A stretch of 41,101 nucleotides of DNA from Marine Group II euryarchaeote MED-G35. Its GTDB lineage: Archaea > Thermoplasmatota > Poseidoniia > Poseidoniales > Thalassarchaeaceae. The stretch is from positions 1-41,101 of the forward strand of contig NTJS01000012.1 in assembly GCA_002457155.1 (NCBI GenBank), read 5' to 3'. Under the pieces are notes generated by a model, which ran no database searches, was not told where the DNA came from, and was given only the letters and a program-made list of their open reading frames with translations. Every line of letters starts with the position of its first letter. Positions within the stretch are counted from its first letter, which is position 1. Below, in pieces: positions 2,428-38,772 of the stretch. Made by a program: the position numbers and the translations under genes.

Positions 2428-2571
2428 ATGGTCTTCTCAGGTCTGAATTCGATCTCGAGTTGTCCCTCATGCGGCGCACCGTGCCTGGTGTACCGTGAGT
2501 ATCTCGCACCTGACTTGAACAGCTCAGCGTGCCTGAAGTGCGGCACCGTCGCACTTACCGTGAACAACTAG
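2428..2571 (+). CDS. Small zinc-ribbon protein, 47 residues
   Basis: This gene is below the ORF-track length limit. It begins ATG GTC TTC TCA at 2428 and ends at the TAG at 2569-2571. The peptide has two Cys pairs, SCPSCGAPC near residue 12 and ACLKCG near residue 35, separated by about 20 residues. This is a typical zinc-ribbon arrangement, with one extra Cys. Archaea encode many such proteins, often binding nucleic acid or other proteins, and no precise function can be given. It is preceded by a strong Shine-Dalgarno sequence, AGGTGA, four bases before ATG. Its stop overlaps the stop of the convergent fatty-acid gene in the palindrome CTAG. Confidence 0.62.
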   Translation: MVFSGLNSISSCPSCGAPCLVYREYLAPDLNSSACLKCGTVALTVNN

Positions 2572-4628
2572 GATCCGACGTACTCCGGTCGGCGGCCCTC
2601 GACCAGGGCGGACAGCCCCTCGCGGGCGTCCTCGGTCGCGAAGATCTCCTCGAGGGCATCCAGCTCGAGCTGCAGACCTGCATCGAGGTCCGTCTCCAGG
2701 GCCTTGTCCAGGAGTTCGCTGGCGATCCTCACCGAGACCGGGGCTGCCCTCGACAGGGACTTCAGCTGCCTAGCGACGTTGCGGTCCTCGGGATCGAACC
2801 CCTCCGGGGCATTCCCCGAGAGTAGCGAGGCCATGTTGTTGTCGGAGTAGAACGCCTTGGACATGGCAGCCACTGGGTGGCTGGGATCGGCTGGGGCTCC
2901 GGGGTACTTGTCCTCGGGCTTCCCGACGGAGGAAATCTCCCGGACCGTGCTGGTGACCCCGGACGCGTCCACCAGGTGGGTGATCAGCCCGAGGGCCCTG
3001 GCAGCGCCAGCATCCATGAAGTTGCCAGCGAGGACGGCGAACCTCGCCGCCTCAATGCCGCAGACCCTAGTCGCCCTCTGGGTCCCACCCAGCCCCGGGT
3101 AGATCCCGATGGAGGTCTCCGGGAACCTGAGCATCGTCTTCTCGGTGCCCACCCTGTAGTCGCAGGAGAGGGCTAGCTCCAGGCCGCCGCCGAGAGCGAG
3201 GCCGGTGGTGAGTGCTATGGTGGTGTGGGGGGAGCCCTCGATCAGGCCGAGCACCCTGTGCCCGTCCTTGGTGAAGTCCTCGATCTCGGAGAACGAGCCC
3301 TCCTCGATCTTGTCGACGAAGAACTTGACGTCGGCTCCGGCGACGAACGCCTTCCCGGCGCCCTCGAGCACTATCGTGCTCACGTCGGAGCGCGAGTTGA
3401 GGGCCTCGATGGCATCCCCCAGCTGGCCGACGACGGTGACGTTGAGCGCGTTCATCGCCTCGGGCCTGTTGATCAGGACGGTGGCGGTGCCATCCTCGTC
3501 GACGTCCACGTCGACGTAGCTGAACTCGAACGGCTCGGTCCTGCCTGAGAACCACTCGGGGATGTCGAGGCCCGCCAGCTCGGCGTACTCCCGGGCCATC
3601 CTGGATGCCTCGGTGACGCCGATCCTGTTGGCGAGCTCGAAGGGGCCGTTGGTCCACCTGAGGCCGACCTTGGCCCCGCGGTCCACGTCCTCCATGCTGC
3701 AGATCCCCTCCTCGGCAATCTGGGAGCAGACTGCGAAGGCCTGGCCCATCAGCCTCTCCTTGATCTGCCTGGCTGCCTCCTCGTCGCAGTCACCGTCGTC
3801 CTCGCCGATCCCCCACATCTCGCCATCTTCCACGAGTGCTCGCATGTTGTCCGCGCCGGCGAACCTTGGGACGCCCAGCTGCTCCGACAGGTAGTCGCTG
3901 CTGTGCAGTGCTATGGTCGGCCCTGTGAGGTTCATGAGGCCGAATGGCCCCAGCCCGATGCGGAACTCCCTGCATGCCACGGCGTCTATCTGAGCAGCGG
4001 TCGCGACCCCCTCCTCCAGGAGCCTGCACGCCTCGTTGATCCAGGGCACGAAGAAGCGGTTGACCACGAATCCGGGCCTGTCCTTGCAGACGATTATGAC
4101 CTTGCCCATCGTCTTGCAGTACTGCTCGACTGCGTCCATGGTCTCCTGGGACGTGGTCTCGGCGGGGATTATCTCCACGAGCCTGTTCTTGGCCGGGTGG
4201 TAGAACCAGTGCATCCCCACGAACCGGTCCTTCCTGCCGACCTGCTGGGCCAGCTCGTTGACTGACAGTGAGGATGTGTTGGTGGCGAGTATCGTGTGCT
4301 CGCCGCAGGTGCTGTCGAGGCTGGAGAATATCTCCCGCTTGAGCTCGAAGTCCTCGAACACCGCCTCGATCACCAGGTCGGTGTCGGGGGAGACGTTCTC
4401 GTTGCCAACGACGCCCGTGATGCTGCTCTTGATCCGCTCGGCCTGCTCGGGGCGGAAGATCCTCCTCTCGAGCGCCTCCTGCAGGAACTTGTCTATCGTG
4501 GCATGGCCCCTGTCCACCCACTGCTGCTCCCTGTCCACCATCTGGACTGAGAATCCCTCAGTAGCGCTCTTCTGGGCTATGCCGGAGCCCATGTTGCCCG
4601 CTCCGATTATCGCGACCGATTGCACCAT
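2568..4628 (-). CDS. Bifunctional 3-hydroxyacyl-CoA dehydrogenase / enoyl-CoA hydratase
   Basis: The 686-residue protein carries out two successive beta-oxidation steps: hydration of enoyl-CoA and NAD-dependent oxidation of the 3-hydroxyacyl-CoA. The dehydrogenase comes first (about residues 1-300). It shows the Rossmann motif GAGNMGSGIA, NTSSLSV, and GMHWFYHPAKNRLVEII around the catalytic His. The crotonase-fold hydratase follows (about 370-570). It has the oxyanion-hole segments FVAGADVKFF and LGGGLELALSCDY, and ETSIGIYPGLGGTQR carrying the second acidic residue. The order, dehydrogenase before hydratase, is the archaeal type and the reverse of bacterial FadB. The last 110 residues are less conserved. 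No thiolase or acyl-CoA dehydrogenase gene is adjacent. Either fatty-acid breakdown or, in reverse, acyl-CoA synthesis is possible. Confidence 0.93.
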   Translation of the reverse strand: MVQSVAIIGAGNMGSGIAQKSATEGFSVQMVDREQQWVDRGHATIDKFLQEALERRIFRPEQAERIKSSITGVVGNENVSPDTDLVIEAVFEDFELKREIFSSLDSTCGEHTILATNTSSLSVNELAQQVGRKDRFVGMHWFYHPAKNRLVEIIPAETTSQETMDAVEQYCKTMGKVIIVCKDRPGFVVNRFFVPWINEACRLLEEGVATAAQIDAVACREFRIGLGPFGLMNLTGPTIALHSSDYLSEQLGVPRFAGADNMRALVEDGEMWGIGEDDGDCDEEAARQIKERLMGQAFAVCSQIAEEGICSMEDVDRGAKVGLRWTNGPFELANRIGVTEASRMAREYAELAGLDIPEWFSGRTEPFEFSYVDVDVDEDGTATVLINRPEAMNALNVTVVGQLGDAIEALNSRSDVSTIVLEGAGKAFVAGADVKFFVDKIEEGSFSEIEDFTKDGHRVLGLIEGSPHTTIALTTGLALGGGLELALSCDYRVGTEKTMLRFPETSIGIYPGLGGTQRATRVCGIEAARFAVLAGNFMDAGAARALGLITHLVDASGVTSTVREISSVGKPEDKYPGAPADPSHPVAAMSKAFYSDNNMASLLSGNAPEGFDPEDRNVARQLKSLSRAAPVSVRIASELLDKALETDLDAGLQLELDALEEIFATEDAREGLSALVEGRRPEYVGS

Positions 4629-18866: not shown

Positions 18867-19412
18867 TCAGTCCATGGATCCCATCTCGATCCTGTCCTCG
18901 GAGCGGATCATAGTGTGGATGCACTGCCTCGATGGGTTGACTACGAACCCCAGCCTGAGGAAGTTCCGACCCAGGATCATCCTGTGCTTGAGCTGCGATC
19001 GGTCTGCTAGGCACACCTCGACGTCGAAGTCCCTGGATGCTATCTCGATGGTGGTGGTGATCACTGGTCGCATGGTCTCGTGACCACCCGTGTCCCTGAT
19101 CCTCCTCCATCTGTGAAGGGGCCTCTCTGTCCACCTGCTGCCCTCCTCCAGGCGGAACCTGATTCTGGTCTCTGGACTGGATTCGATGATCTCTATGTCA
19201 GCGGCATGGAGGGTGTTTGACCAGGCGCCTGTGTCTATCTTGGCGAGGATGGGGGGCCTACTGAGCTCGGGTAATCCTACCCACTCCCTCCATCCAACTA
19301 TTGCCGGCCTAATCACGTCACCACCACGTTCGGGGCCATCCGGGGTTTCTTGAAACCAACGGAAGGCGGATTCGAAGATCGCGTGCAGAATTGGTCGCCC
19401 AAGGACTTGCAT
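18867..19412 (-). CDS. Retropepsin-like protein (PF05618, RimK-associated protease-like)
   Basis: The domain spans roughly residues 33-175 and begins [16 protein letters not shown]. It has the aspartic-protease-like motif [13 protein letters not shown] (Asp 60, Thr 61, Gly 62), a conserved RPVI segment, and [19 protein letters not shown] near the end. These are the hallmarks of the family often annotated as ATP-dependent zinc protease, which frequently accompanies RimK-type ATP-grasp ligases. No RimK gene is present here. The start is uncertain: ATG 19412 gives 181 residues, TTG 19430 is an alternative, and a GTG just before the domain is also possible. It diverges from guaB and leads the minus-strand cluster ending at 17204. 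Substrate unknown. Confidence 0.8.
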
Positions 19413-19449
19413 GGAATCGTTGAAGTACAAGTCTCCACGCGTATCCCTA

Positions 19450-20907
19450 ATGGCGCAGATAGAGACCGCACTGAGTTACGACGACGTTCTCCTACTGCCA
19501 GCAGAGTCAGCAGTCCTCCCAGCCGAGGTCGCTCTCTCGACCAGGCTAACCACCGACATTGAGCTCAATGCTCCCATTGTGTCTGCTGCGATGGACACGG
19601 TCACCGAGGCCGAGATGGCGATCGCAATGGCCCAAGGCGGGGGAATTGGGGTTATCCACAGGAACATGCCCATCGAGGAGCAGGCTGTGGAGGTTGACAA
19701 GGTAAAGAGATTCGAGTCGGGCCTTGTTCTCGAGCCGGTCACGGTCGATCCAACGATGACGGTCGGAGAACTGAGGATGGAGAAGGACCGGTACGGTTTC
19801 TCCGGATTCCCGGTGATCAATGGTGATGGCAGCATTGTTGGGATGGTGACGAACAGGGACATCAGGTTCGTCGAGGATGAAGAGACGGCTATTTCCGAGG
19901 TAATGACCACGGATCTGGTCACTGTCCCAGAGCACGTGGATATGGAAGAAGCGAAGAAGCTGCTCCACCAACACAGGATCGAGAAGCTGGTCGTTGTCAA
20001 TCCAGAAGGGGGCTTCTCGGGACTGATTACCGTTAGAGACATCAATCGTTCCCGAGACAATCCGCTATCTTGCAAAGACGACCGTGGCAGGCTTCGCGTG
20101 GTCGCAGCAACTGGGACGGGGGAGTTTGGGATCCTAAGGGCGCTAGCAATGTTCGAGGCGGGGGCCGATGCAGTCGCTGTGGACACCGCTCATGGACACT
20201 CTCATGGAGTCCTAGAGACCGTGCGAGCCATCAGGGACCAGGCTGGTCCCGATGCGCAGATCATCGCAGGTAACGTGGGAACCTCTGAAGCGGCGGCAGC
20301 ACTAATCGAAAGCGGTGCGAATGCCATCAAGGTAGGAATTGGGCCCGGATCGATATGCACCACCAGGATAGTCACCGGAGTTGGGGTTCCCCAGTTCTCA
20401 GCCGTGATGAGCGCAGTCGAGGCTTGCTCCAAGAGGGGAGTCCCTGTAATCGCCGATGGGGGGATAAAGTACAGCGGTGACATCGCCAAGGCGATCGCAT
20501 CCGGAGCGGATTGTGTGATGGTTGGATCGCTTCTTGCGGGTACCGATGAGTCCCCAGGAGAGACCATCCTCTACCAAGGTAGGGCATACAAGCAGTATCG
20601 AGGGATGGGGTCTCTGGGTGCAATGAGCAAGGGGTCTTCCGACCGTTACTTCCAGTCATCCCAGGGAGACACTAGGAAGTACGTCCCAGAGGGGATAGAG
20701 GGAAGGGTCCCCTCCAGAGGACCGGTTGACCAAGTCCTGTACCAGTTGATGGGTGGGCTCAGGAGTTCTATGGGTTACACCGGAAATCCGACGATTCAGG
20801 CCATGAAGTCAGACTGCAAATTCGTTCGAATTACGAATGCTGGACTCTCTGAGAGCCATGTCCACGATGTGGAGATAACGCGAGAGGCCCCCAACTACAG
20901 GAGGTGA
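19450..20907 (+). CDS. guaB: Inosine-5'-monophosphate dehydrogenase
   Basis: The enzyme oxidises IMP to XMP with NAD, the first committed step to GMP. I start it at ATG 19450 ([17 protein letters not shown]), giving 485 residues, the usual size. The track's earlier start adds 13 atypical residues. The barrel shows [13 protein letters not shown]. Tandem CBS domains follow at about 92-210. The catalytic loop [15 protein letters not shown] has its Cys at residue 303, and the flap has [11 protein letters not shown] with SDRYFQ carrying the catalytic Arg-Tyr. It is followed 4 bp later by msrA, whose Shine-Dalgarno sequence contains the guaB stop codon, so the two are translationally coupled. Confidence 0.97.
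20899..20907 (+). promoter_or_regulatory. Extended Shine-Dalgarno of msrA containing the guaB stop codon
   Basis: AGGAGGTGA lies 4 bases before the msrA ATG, and its last three bases are the guaB stop. It pairs with the conserved CCUCC-containing 3' end of 16S rRNA over at least nine positions. The downstream bases CCCG ATG match those before the zinc-ribbon gene at 2428. The arrangement suggests terminating ribosomes reinitiate on msrA. Confidence 0.65.
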
Positions 20908-20911
20908 CCCG

Positions 20912-21436
20912 ATGGAGGAGTTGCATCTCGGAGGAGGGTGCTTCTGGTGCATAGAAGGAGGTTTGCTAGGACTCAGGGGAGTTCACGAGGTAGTTCCCGG
21001 ATACAGCGGCGGACATGTAGAGAACCCGACGTACGAGCAGGTGTGCGGGAAGAAGACCGGTCATGCAGAGGTCGTGAGGGCGACCTTCGATCCAGAAGTA
21101 ATCCCAAGGATGACCCTGCTCAGGGTTTTCCACACCCTTTTCGACCCCACGCAGTTGAACAGACAGGGTAACGACGTTGGCCCCCAGTACCGAAGCATAG
21201 TCCTGTACACGAACGAAGCCCAGAGGGAGGATGCGGAAGCGGCCATCGAGGAGGTTTCCCAGTACTACGACAAACCAGTGGTCACAGAAGTTGTGAAGCT
21301 GGAGAAGTTCTGGGAGGCGGAGGATTACCACCACGACTACTTCGCTAGGAACGGGGCGTCGAATCCATACTGCGTCGCCGTGGTTGAACCGAAAATCGCT
21401 AAGGTCAGGTCCCTACACGCCGAACTGTATGAGTGA
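20912..21436 (+). CDS. msrA: Peptide methionine sulfoxide reductase A
   Basis: The 174-residue protein repairs methionine-S-sulfoxide in oxidised proteins using thioredoxin-type electrons. It shows the active site GGGCFWCIEGG near residue 10 with the nucleophilic first Cys, then VVPGYSGGHVENPTYEQVC, a DPTQLNRQGNDVGPQYRS segment, and KFWEAEDYHHDYF. All are diagnostic, and the length is typical. It starts 4 bp after guaB and its end overlaps the AlkB-like gene by 8 bp. Grouping with a metal oxygenase suggests it protects against oxidants made by that enzyme, though this is only an inference from neighbourhood. Confidence 0.96.
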   Translation: MEELHLGGGCFWCIEGGLLGLRGVHEVVPGYSGGHVENPTYEQVCGKKTGHAEVVRATFDPEVIPRMTLLRVFHTLFDPTQLNRQGNDVGPQYRSIVLYTNEAQREDAEAAIEEVSQYYDKPVVTEVVKLEKFWEAEDYHHDYFARNGASNPYCVAVVEPKIAKVRSLHAELYE

Positions 21437-22475
21437 GACTGAACTGGCACCTGAGCCTTGGGCTTTCCACCTCCTTGGTCTGATTACTCCGTTTCTCGCA
21501 ATATCGGGGAATATTCTCGGTGTGATAGAGGACCAGGTCTTCGTGGCCATGGGGGTGGTATTCGTTTGGGGCGTTAGTCCGATACTCGACATTGTGATGG
21601 GCGAGTCGAAGGTGGCAAGACCCCCGAGGGAATCGGGCACGCCATTCGAGGTCCTTCTCTGGGTTCACGGTCTCCTTCAGCTTGTCGTGGTTGGGTCATT
21701 CTTCTGGTTCGCGGCGATTGAGGGGCTCACGATGTGGGTCGTAGTAGGTGGCCTCTCGTCCGGGCTGAGCGGTGCTGCCTCGGCCACAGTGACTGCCCAC
21801 GAGCTAGGCCACAAGAAGAGGGGGAGTCCCGGTTGGAGGCTGGCCAGAGTCATCCTGTTCACGGTCAACTACACGCACTTCACCTACGAGCACAATCACG
21901 TCCACCACAAGTGGGTCAGCACTGACAGGGACTCGGCCAGCGCAACGGCGGATCAGGGGCTGTGGTCCTTCTGGCTCAGCACCATTCCGGGGCAATTCGC
22001 CTCTTCCGCCAGAGTCCACAACAAGAGGGGGAGGAGGGGCCTGAGGAACCCGTCATACCGCGGCCTGCTTCTGCAGATTTCCGCATTGCTGGCAATTGCA
22101 TTCCTACCTGGGGAGATGGGTTGGTTCGACGGCATTCCCGTAGCAGCAGGCTGGCTCGTACTCTCTGCCATCAGTATCCTGACTCTGGAGTACGTGAACT
22201 ACATCCGCCACTGGGGCCTGAGGAGATCGGAGGACGAGAAGTTCTCAGCCGGACACTCCTGGAACACGGAGGCAAGATGGTCGAGGTGGAGCCTGCTGGA
22301 GCTAACCCGTCATTCCGACCACCATCTACGTTCCAGCGTCCCATTCTGGAAGCTCAGGCCATATGATGGCACGCCTGAGCTCAGATGGGGTTACTACGCA
22401 TCATGGTGGCCCTGCCTGATTCCGCCGATCTGGAAGAGGGTGATGCGAAGCAGGCTGCCAGATAACCGGCAGTAA
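21429..22475 (+). CDS. AlkB-like membrane di-iron monooxygenase (alkane hydroxylase family)
   Basis: I start it at ATG 21429 (MSETELAPEPW), inside the msrA end, giving 348 residues. Around six hydrophobic segments surround the full set of histidine motifs. These are HELGHKK (His 124, 128), EHNHVHH (155, 157, 159, 160), NYIRHWGLRR (His 261), GHSWNT (His 276) and RHSDHH (295, 298, 299). The NYxxHxGLxR and HSWN elements distinguish alkane hydroxylases from fatty-acid desaturases. Bacterial AlkB has NYxEHYGL, so the Trp at 262 is a departure. Family members use O2 and rubredoxin to hydroxylate alkanes or alkyl groups. No rubredoxin gene is visible nearby. The native substrate could be an alkane, a fatty acid or a lipid tail. 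Confidence 0.88.
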   Translation: MSETELAPEPWAFHLLGLITPFLAISGNILGVIEDQVFVAMGVVFVWGVSPILDIVMGESKVARPPRESGTPFEVLLWVHGLLQLVVVGSFFWFAAIEGLTMWVVVGGLSSGLSGAASATVTAHELGHKKRGSPGWRLARVILFTVNYTHFTYEHNHVHHKWVSTDRDSASATADQGLWSFWLSTIPGQFASSARVHNKRGRRGLRNPSYRGLLLQISALLAIAFLPGEMGWFDGIPVAAGWLVLSAISILTLEYVNYIRHWGLRRSEDEKFSAGHSWNTEARWSRWSLLELTRHSDHHLRSSVPFWKLRPYDGTPELRWGYYASWWPCLIPPIWKRVMRSRLPDNRQ

Positions 22476-22512: not shown

Positions 22513-22965
22513 ATGAGCAACTCGCACGTGGTGCCAGAATCGTCCGAGGTCGGGTCGCCTAGTACAACCTCTGCGCTCATCCACACTGGTCTGCTTTCGG
22601 TAGGCCTGAGCAACCTCTTCTGGAAGGGTAGCGAGATCAGTGCGAACCCGGATGATAAGGTACTGATCCTAGCAATGGGTCTCTTCTGCCTGGCCATACC
22701 ATTCCAGGGGCTTTACATCCTACTGTCGAGGATGATCAGGGAGTACGACTCCTCGGCGGAGCTGGTGATGCCCGAGTCGATTCTGCGATTGGCGTCAATC
22801 TGCGAGATGGTCAGCTACGGTTGCGGAATCACCGGGTTCTGCCTCATGCTGATGAGGACTTCAACCATCCTCGGTGGCACCCTGCTCTTCTCGGCGGTCC
22901 TGGTCATACTACTGGCGAGGGCTGCGATGGTGAAGGCGTACGAGGCTAACCAGGCTGCGTACTAG
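22513..22965 (+). CDS. Small membrane protein, unknown
   Basis: I do not recognise this 150-residue protein. It shows hydrophobic segments near residues 22-38, 50-72, 90-110 and 116-140, consistent with three or four membrane helices. The N-terminal 20 residues are polar and serine-rich. It is 37 bp downstream of the AlkB-like gene on the same strand and could be cotranscribed with it, perhaps as a membrane partner. No conserved His, Cys pair or nucleotide-binding motif is seen. It is an open reading frame of good codon character, not a shadow. Confidence 0.65.
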   Translation: MSNSHVVPESSEVGSPSTTSALIHTGLLSVGLSNLFWKGSEISANPDDKVLILAMGLFCLAIPFQGLYILLSRMIREYDSSAELVMPESILRLASICEMVSYGCGITGFCLMLMRTSTILGGTLLFSAVLVILLARAAMVKAYEANQAAY

Positions 22966-27585: not shown

Positions 27586-29524
<1,939 letters not shown>

Positions 29525-35736: not shown

Positions 35737-36514
35737 ATCTCTCCCACAAATCGTTATCCGGATTCAGGCCTATTACGGCAGTGATTGCAACGAGCTGCCA
35801 GAAGTGCCATTCGAGGAAACTACCCGGCCAGTCAATTACCTCAAGAAGACCCGACCACACCACGAAGGAGAGGATATCCATCGAAATCAATGCAACCGAG
35901 AAATAAAGCAAGAAGGTGTAGGATTTCTTGCCAAATCGAATACTATTTCCCTCTGGATTGGGATCCTCTTCGTAGCCCCCGCCCCAAGAATATACGAAGC
36001 CCCCGAAGAACACCAGTGTGCTAATGTCCCACAACGACCATGAGATTGTAATCAGTATCGCATCTAACGCATTCAACCCAAATTCCGATGTCCAGAATTC
36101 ATAACTGTCTATTAGCGAACCTGGCATGGTTGTGACGGATTCGATGGAATGAATCATTGCTGAGAAGCCGTTTGACCCGTCCCACCACCAATCGCCAAAC
36201 AAGAAAGAGGCGAAGAATAACGCGGTTGCTCCAATCTTCTGCTTGTGGTAATTAGGTAATTCTGAGAGGGGGTTTTCTGACGTGCCCCCTGAACTTGGCA
36301 CTATGGTGTCTTTCGCATTACTCTGGACCCATTGGTCGCCCTCCCTCTGATAGCCCCCTATCGCTATTGGCTCGGGAGAGTCTGTATCGTCCTGCCCCGG
36401 CGGCGGTGACGGCGGTGGCGGAGGGCTACCATTGTGTGGATTGTGGGAGTCGGTATCGTCCTGTTTGTCCTTATCGGGAGTCACCTCCCACCAGTTCTCG
36501 GGCTCTTCGGGCAT
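35708..36514 (-). CDS. Membrane protein with proline-rich acidic N-terminus, unknown
   Basis: The 268-residue protein has an unusual polar first 90 residues with PPPPPSPPP and repeated DDTDS, then several hydrophobic segments. These fall near residues 96-108, 150-170, 195-215 and 235-250, suggesting 4 membrane helices. Aromatic residues are abundant (DWWWDGSNGF). I see no known domain or catalytic motif. The codons are more AT-rich than those of serS, consistent with the accessory character of the right end of the window. The gene overlaps the serS stop by 29 bp and diverges from the esterase gene. A surface or envelope role is plausible but unproved. Confidence 0.68.
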   Translation of the reverse strand: MPEEPENWWEVTPDKDKQDDTDSHNPHNGSPPPPPSPPPGQDDTDSPEPIAIGGYQREGDQWVQSNAKDTIVPSSGGTSENPLSELPNYHKQKIGATALFFASFLFGDWWWDGSNGFSAMIHSIESVTTMPGSLIDSYEFWTSEFGLNALDAILITISWSLWDISTLVFFGGFVYSWGGGYEEDPNPEGNSIRFGKKSYTFLLYFSVALISMDILSFVVWSGLLEVIDWPGSFLEWHFWQLVAITAVIGLNPDNDLWERFNSLQSAKE

Positions 36515-36621
36515 TTCTAAGCAAACACAGTACGATAGATTCGGACTTTAACTTGCCCCCGGCATCCGGAAGTGGCTCTGGGGCGGGATACATTCATCCG
36601 AGCGAAGTTGGTATAGGGGTT

Positions 36622-38772
36622 GTGCGGCAGCAGATATCCCTGGTCATCCTACTGCTTTCTTCGATAGCAGTAGGCCCTCATTTTGTGGATACGCGGCCTG
36701 CTCTCCTAGGTTCAGAGGACGGAGGGATGGGCACCGACTCGTCGAATGAATCAGGGGAATTCGGCCCGATTGAGTATAACGACAGTTTCCAGTACGCCGG
36801 GATAGAGGTGGGCAATCGATCAGCCACCCTGATGATGCCGGGAGGTCACGATTACTCGCGCCCACTCCCACTGGTCGTCTCCCTGCACGGATACAGCAGT
36901 AGTGGGTACTGGGGTGCTTGGTACGTTGACCTGTTCGACAGCGTGCTTGACAACGAGCACCTGCTTCTGTACCCTGATGGGACGATGAACCCGATAGGGA
37001 ACAGATTCTGGAACGCCACTGCGGCATGCTGCAACTACTGGGAGCAGGATGTTGATGATGTCAGCTGGTTGATGGGTCTGGTTGACCTTGCAATCGACAA
37101 CTACGGGGCCGATCCAGATGGAATCGTGTTCGTCGGACACTCCAACGGCGGTTTCATGTCTCACAGGCTAGTATGCGAGCAGGGGGACAGAATCAGGGGG
37201 ATAGTGTCACTCGCAGGTTCTACGTATGACGATTTCGATGAAGTTTGTGACGACACTGGGAGGCCCAACATCCTACAGGTCCATGGCACCTTCGATTGGG
37301 TCATCTACTACGACGGAGGGTATGACTACGACTGGGACGATGGTGCATTGCACTACTACCCAGGTGCGGAGAGCACTGTGGGATCATGGGCAAACAGGTC
37401 GGGGTGCGATAGCGATTACACGCTAACCGGGCACCTTGACTTGGTCGTCCCTGCTGGTACGAACGACACAGACACGCTCGAGCACCTCAATTGCTCAGAT
37501 GGCAATAGGGTCGCACTATGGAGGATTAACGGGGGGAGTCATTCCCCAGTCTTCCGGGACGGGCAGTTCCCCAACACGACCGTTCCCTGGGCCCTGAGCG
37601 GATTCGTCAGAGACTCGGACGGAGATGGAGTCAGGGATGACCTGGACCAGTTCGTATACAACCCCAATGAGTGGAATGATACCGATAGTGACGGTATCGG
37701 TGACAACGCGGACGCCTTCCCCGAGGACCCTGCGGAGTGGGAGGACACCGACGGTGACGGGGTCGGGGACAACGCGGACGCCTTCCCCGAGGACCCTGCG
37801 GAGTGGGAGGACACCGACGGTGACGGGGTCGGGGACAACGCGGACGACCTCCCTGAGGATCCCACCGAGACCACCGACACGGACGGGGATGGGGTCGGGG
37901 ACAACGCGGACGACCTCCCTGAGGATCCCAGCGAGACCACCGACACGGATGGGGACGGGGTCGGCGACAACTCCGATGCCTTACCCGAGGACCCGAGCGA
38001 GTGGGAGGACTGGGACGGAGACGGAGTTGGCGACAACTCCGATGCCTTCCCAAGGATGCCAGGAGAGTGGAACGACACGGATGGGGACGGGGTCGGCGAC
38101 AACTCCGACGCATTCCCCGAGGACCCGAGCGAGTGGGTGGACAGTGACGGGGACGGAGTTGGCGACAACTCCGACGCCTTCCCCGATGACCCGAGCGAGT
38201 GGGTGGACAGTGACGGGGACGGAGTTGGCGACAACTCCGACGCCTTCCCCGACGATGGACAGGAGAGCTCAGATTACGATCAGGACGGGTACGGGGATAA
38301 CGCAGATGCGTTCCCGGAGGACCCGAGCGAGTGGTCTGACTCCGACGGGGACGGGTTCGGCGACAACTCGGACGCCTTCCCCGAGGACCCGAGCGAGTGG
38401 GAGGACAGTGACGGGGACGGGATAGGGGACAATTTCGATGCCTTCCCCAAGGACCCGAGCGAGTGGTCTGACTCCGACGGTGATGGGGTCGGCGACAACT
38501 CGGACGCCTTCCCATTGGATTCCGAGGAGTGGGGGGACAGTGACGGAGATGGCGTCGGCGACAACTCGGACGCCTTCCCATTGGATTCCGAGGAGTGGGA
38601 CGACACGGATGGAGACGGGGTCGGGGATGAAGCCGATTACTACCCAGAGGACCCTAGCAAATCAGAGAGGAGCTTGTTGGTTCCCTCTTTGACGATATTA
38701 GTCGGGATCGTAGTCGTAGCCTCGATCGTAAAGTGGTCCCTCACCAAGAGAGATTCAGAGGGTAGCGTGTGA
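36622..38772 (+). CDS. Secreted esterase (PHB depolymerase/LpqC-like) with 16 DxDxDG calcium-type repeats
   Basis: The track ORF begins at 36295, but that part is a shadow of the divergent gene. A GTG at 36622 yields a signal peptide (VRQQISLVILLLSSIAVG) and 716 residues. Residues 40-320 form an alpha/beta hydrolase: PLVVSLHGYSSSG, the nucleophile in GHSNGG (Ser 174), an Asp in HGTFDWVI (Asp 225) and a His in GGSHSP (His 307). This resembles polyhydroxybutyrate depolymerase and feruloyl-esterase families. Residues 331-680 hold sixteen 22-residue units of the type DGDGVGDNSDAFPEDPSEWE, like thrombospondin type 3 calcium repeats. A C-terminal helix (SLTILVGIVVVASIVKW) anchors it in the membrane, displaying the esterase on a calcium-stiffened stalk. 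The stop lies in repeat copy A. Confidence 0.87.
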   Translation: MRQQISLVILLLSSIAVGPHFVDTRPALLGSEDGGMGTDSSNESGEFGPIEYNDSFQYAGIEVGNRSATLMMPGGHDYSRPLPLVVSLHGYSSSGYWGAWYVDLFDSVLDNEHLLLYPDGTMNPIGNRFWNATAACCNYWEQDVDDVSWLMGLVDLAIDNYGADPDGIVFVGHSNGGFMSHRLVCEQGDRIRGIVSLAGSTYDDFDEVCDDTGRPNILQVHGTFDWVIYYDGGYDYDWDDGALHYYPGAESTVGSWANRSGCDSDYTLTGHLDLVVPAGTNDTDTLEHLNCSDGNRVALWRINGGSHSPVFRDGQFPNTTVPWALSGFVRDSDGDGVRDDLDQFVYNPNEWNDTDSDGIGDNADAFPEDPAEWEDTDGDGVGDNADAFPEDPAEWEDTDGDGVGDNADDLPEDPTETTDTDGDGVGDNADDLPEDPSETTDTDGDGVGDNSDALPEDPSEWEDWDGDGVGDNSDAFPRMPGEWNDTDGDGVGDNSDAFPEDPSEWVDSDGDGVGDNSDAFPDDPSEWVDSDGDGVGDNSDAFPDDGQESSDYDQDGYGDNADAFPEDPSEWSDSDGDGFGDNSDAFPEDPSEWEDSDGDGIGDNFDAFPKDPSEWSDSDGDGVGDNSDAFPLDSEEWGDSDGDGVGDNSDAFPLDSEEWDDTDGDGVGDEADYYPEDPSKSERSLLVPSLTILVGIVVVASIVKWSLTKRDSEGSV
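37612..38661 (+). repeat. In-frame 66-bp tandem repeat array (16 units) in the esterase gene
   Basis: The repeat unit is 66 bp, coding 22 residues. Two neighbouring units (from 37702 and 37768) are identical over 66 bp, others differ at several sites, and one unit (DGQESSDYDQDG) is divergent. All units stay in frame. Near identity between adjacent copies suggests recent duplication or gene conversion, so the copy number may vary between strains. Confidence 0.9.

Follow-up and report, generated by a model that had tools for sequence, protein, structure and literature searches.

The archaeal gene at 21429..22475 (+ strand) of the DNA studied here is confirmed as a genuine, intact reading frame that evolves under strong purifying selection. 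Its product is a protein of 348 amino acids (P0001) whose membership in the AlkB/XylM superfamily of membrane diiron oxygenases, and not among the desaturases, is supported by phmmer searches, structure prediction with AlphaFold and Foldseek, and phylogeny. On balance, we consider it probable that P0001 is an O2-using diiron oxygenase from a separate marine lineage of this superfamily, comprising Poseidoniia and a few gammaproteobacteria, in which Arg or Gln takes the place of the active-site carboxylate, electrons come from a donor other than rubredoxin, and a lipid-like chain is oxygenated. The gene lies in a stretch of 41,101 nucleotides (the window), corresponding to contig 4 in a 68% complete genome of 1.2 Mb.

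Host, family, and predicted fold of the oxygenase

Few archaea of the sunlit ocean are as numerous as Poseidoniales, which, to our knowledge, have no cultured member. The preliminary description, made from the sequence alone, had spoken of an apparent archaeon; the nearest matches to the window are records of Candidatus Thalassarchaeaceae and Poseidoniales, from metagenomes as well as AG-/AH- isolates, and place the host in Poseidoniales. Because the same gene order occurs in metagenome and AG-/AH- isolate records alike, the oxygenase did not arise as a chimera in a single assembly. Oxygenase matches were found in 38 of 60 relatives (two of the 38 are short remnants) and in 15 of the 22 high-quality genomes, and the gene is patchy within the genus. 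In 118 sampled Thermoplasmatota genomes, matches were confined to Poseidoniales, apart from one fragment in a different family within the same class. Many of the archaea that carry the gene live in the surface ocean; rhodopsin, a photic-zone marker, is present in 37 of the 60 genomes and by inspection shows no obvious link with the oxygenase.

The sole Pfam family detected in P0001 is FA_desaturase (93 bits), a broad entry that catches AlkB as well as desaturases, and a search of NCBIfam returned no match. A phmmer search of the PDB identified only two Fontimonas AlkB structures, FtAlkBG (PDB ID: 8f6t, E value of 6.6e-36) and FtAlkB (PDB ID: 8sbb, E value of 5.6e-32), with approximately 29% sequence identity to P0001. 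A single-sequence AlphaFold model reached a pLDDT of only 47, and a model built from an alignment of 24 relatives was used instead (pLDDT 85, pTM 0.86). The predicted fold has six long helices at the places of the six transmembrane helices of AlkB. A Foldseek search of 350,542 PDB chains with this model gave significant matches only to 8f6t (E value of 1.4e-13, TM score of 0.81) and 8sbb (E value of 1.1e-12), and none to a desaturase or Scs7-type hydroxylase, which rules out a fatty acid desaturase of the SCD1 type as the closest solved fold. Membrane desaturases and Scs7-type hydroxylases share a His-rich diiron site with P0001, but P0001 has an extra HYG-type motif. Comparison of the window gene with four relatives gave dN values of 0.06 to 0.17 against dS values of 1.3 and above, the latter partly saturated; since this selection is purifying, P0001 is likely to be active as an enzyme.

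The active site

All of the histidine motifs of alkane hydroxylases that had been read from the sequence are indeed present in P0001: box 1, HELGHK (residues 124–129, 21798..21815, +), box 2, EHNHVHH (residues 154–160, 21888..21908, +), the HYG-type motif, NYIRHWGLRR (residues 257–266, 22197..22226, +), box 3, RHSDHH (residues 294–299, 22308..22325, +), and GHSWNT. The iron ligands of FtAlkBG are His137, His141, His167, His171, His172, His272, His311, His314 and His315, together with Glu271 (PMC10113152; numbering is the 8f6t sequence index minus 3, by our own mapping on the phmmer alignment). The nine histidines align, in the same order, with His124 and His128 (box 1), His155, His159 and His160 (box 2), His261 (HYG-type motif), and His295, His298 and His299 (box 3) of P0001, and none of them varies among 97 distinct relatives, the sole exceptions being a single X and a single truncated row. 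The alignment, the model and this conservation support an arrangement like that of AlkB, in which the nine histidines would hold two irons where a hydrophobic pocket ends.

The tenth ligand is replaced. Glu271 of FtAlkBG lies 3.2 Å from the substrate methyl group and has been suggested as the proton donor for the leaving oxygen (PMC10113152), and the same residue (E281 in the numbering of PMC10110569) has been named as a feature that sets AlkB apart from SCD1 and Scs7. In P0001 its position, directly before the HYG-type histidine, is held by Arg260, a change that the preliminary description did not mention; the substitution of Trp for the Tyr of this motif, which it did report, is confirmed as Trp262. 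Among the 97 distinct clade members, the glutamate position is occupied by Arg in 83, Gln in 13, a gap in 1 and Glu in none, whereas Glu is found in 11/11 reference AlkBs and 2/2 Persicobacter sequences, and Gln in 3/3 XylM sequences. The Trp262 equivalent is present in 82 of the 97; the bacterial relative L164 has Arg-Tyr at the two motif positions, and MGIIa members have Gln-Tyr or Gln-His. Replacement of the carboxylate by Arg, or by Gln in MGIIa, may alter the chemistry near the iron; XylM works with Gln at this position, and loss of the carboxylate alone is no proof of a different chemistry. The residue of P0001 aligned to the chain-length position (FtAlkBG Ile54), which we take to be that of Trp55 of Pseudomonas AlkB, is a small Val46. 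The three leucines that position the substrate in AlkB (PMC10110569) are conserved in P0001 and its relatives.

Phylogeny

Maximum support in the IQ-TREE phylogeny (ultrafast bootstrap/SH-aLRT) was obtained for XylM (100/100), followed by AlkB (100/99) and AlkB plus Persicobacter (98/93). All Poseidoniia sequences, together with the bacterial sequences L164 and L165, form a separate clade (98/95) outside the AlkB clade in this tree, which was built after removal of long rows, with a small sampling of AlkB references and no inferred root. The earlier assignment of an AlkB-type enzyme rather than a desaturase thus agrees with phmmer, Foldseek and the tree, and membership in the AlkB/XylM superfamily stands; the lineage falls beside AlkB and not within it. 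Canonical AlkB membership was rejected on this branching (with its limited reference sampling), on the Arg in place of Glu, and on the failure to find a rubredoxin in its own 68% complete genome or in 60 relatives.

Within the separate clade, an RHWG subclade (100/99) contains MGIIb, MGIII and four gammaproteobacterial sequences mixed together, and the bacterial contigs that carry oxygenase relatives have bacterial neighbor genes. This mixture of domains, with bacterial neighbors on the bacterial contigs, means that the oxygenase gene has been transferred between domains, in one direction or the other. No relatives of the oxygenase were found in viral contigs. Two gammaproteobacterial proteins of approximately 805 amino acids (L172 and L173) combine an AlkB-like, Gln-type N-terminal half with a C-terminal extension of approximately 450 amino acids.

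A xylene-monooxygenase-like enzyme, acting on methyl groups of aromatic rings, was also considered and strikes us as very improbable. XylM belongs to the same superfamily and likewise lacks the glutamate, and MGIIa members share its Gln. A Gln-type relative in G031 (L182:1859-8921), the only one found in a pathway-like context, lies beside PaaA_PaaC-like, 3HCDH, ECH and aldehyde dehydrogenase genes. However, XylM sits on a very long branch apart from the clade of P0001, P0001 itself has Arg and not Gln, and xylM is adjoined by a ferredoxin-type donor (a XylA-type reductase), whereas the window cluster contains no XylA-type ferredoxin reductase next to the oxygenase. Membership of the XylM group was therefore rejected.

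Genomic context

The oxygenase gene is part of a cluster that begins with guaB (19411..20907, +), encoding an IMP dehydrogenase (Pfam IMPDH, 520 bits), and continues with msrA (20912..21436, +), encoding a peptide methionine sulfoxide reductase (Pfam PMSR, 187 bits) and overlapping the start of the oxygenase gene by 8 bases. The overlap and the upstream guaB had been described as conserved, and both are seen again in several dozen independent contigs, including some named as AG-/AH- isolates (L034–L036 and L044); the guaB and msrA clusters were identified in 56/81 and 59/81 loci, respectively. A probable partner gene (22513..22965, +) encodes a hydrophobic protein of 150 amino acids with no Pfam family above the cut-off, and lies 41 to 113 bases downstream of the oxygenase gene in the 16 closest relatives. 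Both msrA and the gene for the 150-amino-acid protein are missing in 7/7 tested genus members without the oxygenase, where single absences are limited by the incompleteness of the metagenome-assembled genomes. The three genes tend to be lost together within the genus and look like a small functional unit, in which MsrA might, speculatively, repair methionines oxidized by oxidants leaking from the oxygenase. Other arrangements occur: G032 has msrA and a distant small protein without the oxygenase, and in G035 an open reading frame of 479 amino acids that reads like an FAD-linked oxidase (L202:2028-3464, −) stands where the oxygenase would be, with msrA on one side and a distant small membrane protein on the other. 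In G018, guaB, msrA and the small protein gene are kept and the oxygenase gene has been cut by an in-place deletion to approximately its last 22 codons.

The larger neighborhood in MGIIa (L178 and L180) is that of the window, with regulators, 3HCDH-ECH, a glycosyltransferase, a TYW1-like gene, an ABC block and Dus, and the oxygenase was therefore likely present in the ancestor of Poseidoniales. The beta-oxidation genes 3HCDH-ECH are found at 2568-4628 of the window. A pathway reading from guaB was dropped, as purine synthesis gives no link to C–H oxidation, and the MGIII neighbors (a DAO-type oxidoreductase, a class IV aminotransferase, a sulfotransferase, a C1-like peptidase and a glutamate dehydrogenase-like protein) point to no pathway. 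IMPDH-family genes directly beside two bacterial relatives of the Gln/Arg-Tyr type (L185:3553-5019, − and L186:6603-8069, −) are 37 to 39% identical to the window GuaB and echo the guaB upstream of the oxygenase in MGIIb. The window also contains bacterial-type groEL- and groES-like genes (27586-29524, −), and a gene for a large esterase-like protein followed by many DxDGDGVGDNADAFP repeats (36295-38772, +).

These observations bear on two further explanations. The enzyme could modify lipids of the cell, hydroxylating or desaturating isoprenoid or acyl chains, and have no part in feeding on hydrocarbons. Its conserved position in both Poseidoniales families and its setting among general genes fit a housekeeping role, and superfamily relatives act on lipids (PMC10110569). 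Yet the gene must be dispensable, being patchy in the genus and deleted in place in G018, and no lipid-synthesis genes adjoin it; we regard this explanation as rather unlikely. Together with the deletion in G018, the missing active-site carboxylate and the missing usual donor could also suggest a non-catalytic relic in which the fold alone is kept. We give this the least credence of all, because the nine histidines are invariant, purifying selection is strong, and the gene has passed between domains.

Electron donor

Given that the preliminary description had reasoned that a genome lacking any rubredoxin-type donor would speak against its AlkB assignment, rubredoxins were sought with a profile search that was positive on control genomes, two archaea among them. 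None was detected in the window's own genome (68% complete), nor in the 60 Poseidoniales relatives, 22 of which are at least 90% complete and 38 of which have an oxygenase match, nor in 10 further archaeal carriers, MGIII included, all of these absences resting on incomplete genomes; the result goes against the assignment. A rubredoxin was found in 3/4 gammaproteobacterial carriers. Six arginines form the rubredoxin-docking surface of FtAlkBG (R143, R148, R169, R215, R284 and R287; PMC10113152), and several of these are lost in P0001, which by the phmmer alignment has, in order, K, G, H, R, a gap and K.

Plant-type [2Fe-2S] ferredoxins are spread across Poseidoniales and are the most likely substitute source of electrons. 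There is a precedent in the ferredoxin-reductase-AlkB fusions, which are known and active (PMC8918992) and show that an AlkB-type domain can take a [2Fe-2S] donor other than rubredoxin. A Polaromonas protein (L118) has the domain order ferredoxin, ferredoxin reductase, AlkB and retains the glutamate in its motif, NYMEHYG, whereas P0001 has Arg and no fused donor. The window's own genome, which is incomplete, yielded no plant-type [2Fe-2S] ferredoxin, and the small [2Fe-2S] ferredoxins were dropped as a named partner, as their presence does not track the oxygenase gene; for this reason a ferredoxin donor can only be inferred.

The published annotation implies a working alkane hydroxylase, which would have to act on cyanobacterial C15–C17 alkanes via another donor. 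P0001 retains the AlkB fold, the nine histidines and the substrate-positioning leucines, has the small Val46 at the chain-length position and beta-oxidation genes in its region, and is carried by many archaea of the surface ocean. Against this, Arg replaces Glu in every RHWG member, the clade is separate, AlkB depends on the rubredoxin that was not found in the archaeal genomes searched, and the guaB and msrA neighbors make no alkane operon, unlike those of the reference AlkBs, which adjoin rubredoxin and aldehyde dehydrogenase genes. We therefore view an alkane hydroxylase of this kind as unlikely.

Discussion

The presence of this gene in Poseidoniales is already known and is not new. An 'alkane 1-monooxygenase' is given for Poseidoniales in the Figure 3 legend of Rinke et al. 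(PMC6461757), alkB and xylM have been reported in Poseidoniales genomes (PMC8166890) and alkB1_2 in a single one (PMC8879337), and the Poseidoniales alkane monooxygenase finding is summarized in PMC9535955. Matched by orthology label, these published genes very probably belong to the same family as P0001. In the available portions of PMC6461757, PMC8166890 and PMC8879337, the Glu-to-Arg change, the missing rubredoxin, the clade and the transfers are not treated, and a wider search of the literature, which excluded most subscription journals, turned up neither the active-site substitution nor the lack of rubredoxin. What appears to be new is the replacement of the glutamate by Arg, the position in a clade apart, the transfer between domains, and an order free of rubredoxin in the genomes searched.

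Under the explanation that we favor, a diiron oxygenase of a separate marine lineage, the reaction would most likely be oxygenation of a C–H bond in a long chain that dissolves in the membrane (a fatty acid, isoprenoid or alkane, for example), and the product could enter beta-oxidation or become an altered membrane lipid. A more far-reaching possibility, which we hold only tentatively, is that these proteins constitute a third functional type within the AlkB superfamily, widespread in surface-ocean archaea, in which the Arg beside the two irons holds the substrate by a polar or negatively charged end, such as a carboxylate, a ferredoxin supplies the electrons, and the reaction is other than alkane omega-hydroxylation.

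The Glu-to-Arg change, and the failure to find the usual donor in the genomes searched, make a routine label of oil degradation unsafe. Surveys count this oxygenase gene as alkane degradation, and if it does not encode a rubredoxin-dependent alkane hydroxylase, hydrocarbon use by archaea is being overstated. The natural series of Glu-to-Arg and Glu-to-Gln replacements offers a ready test of the role of the AlkB active-site carboxylate, a question left open by the two AlkB structures.
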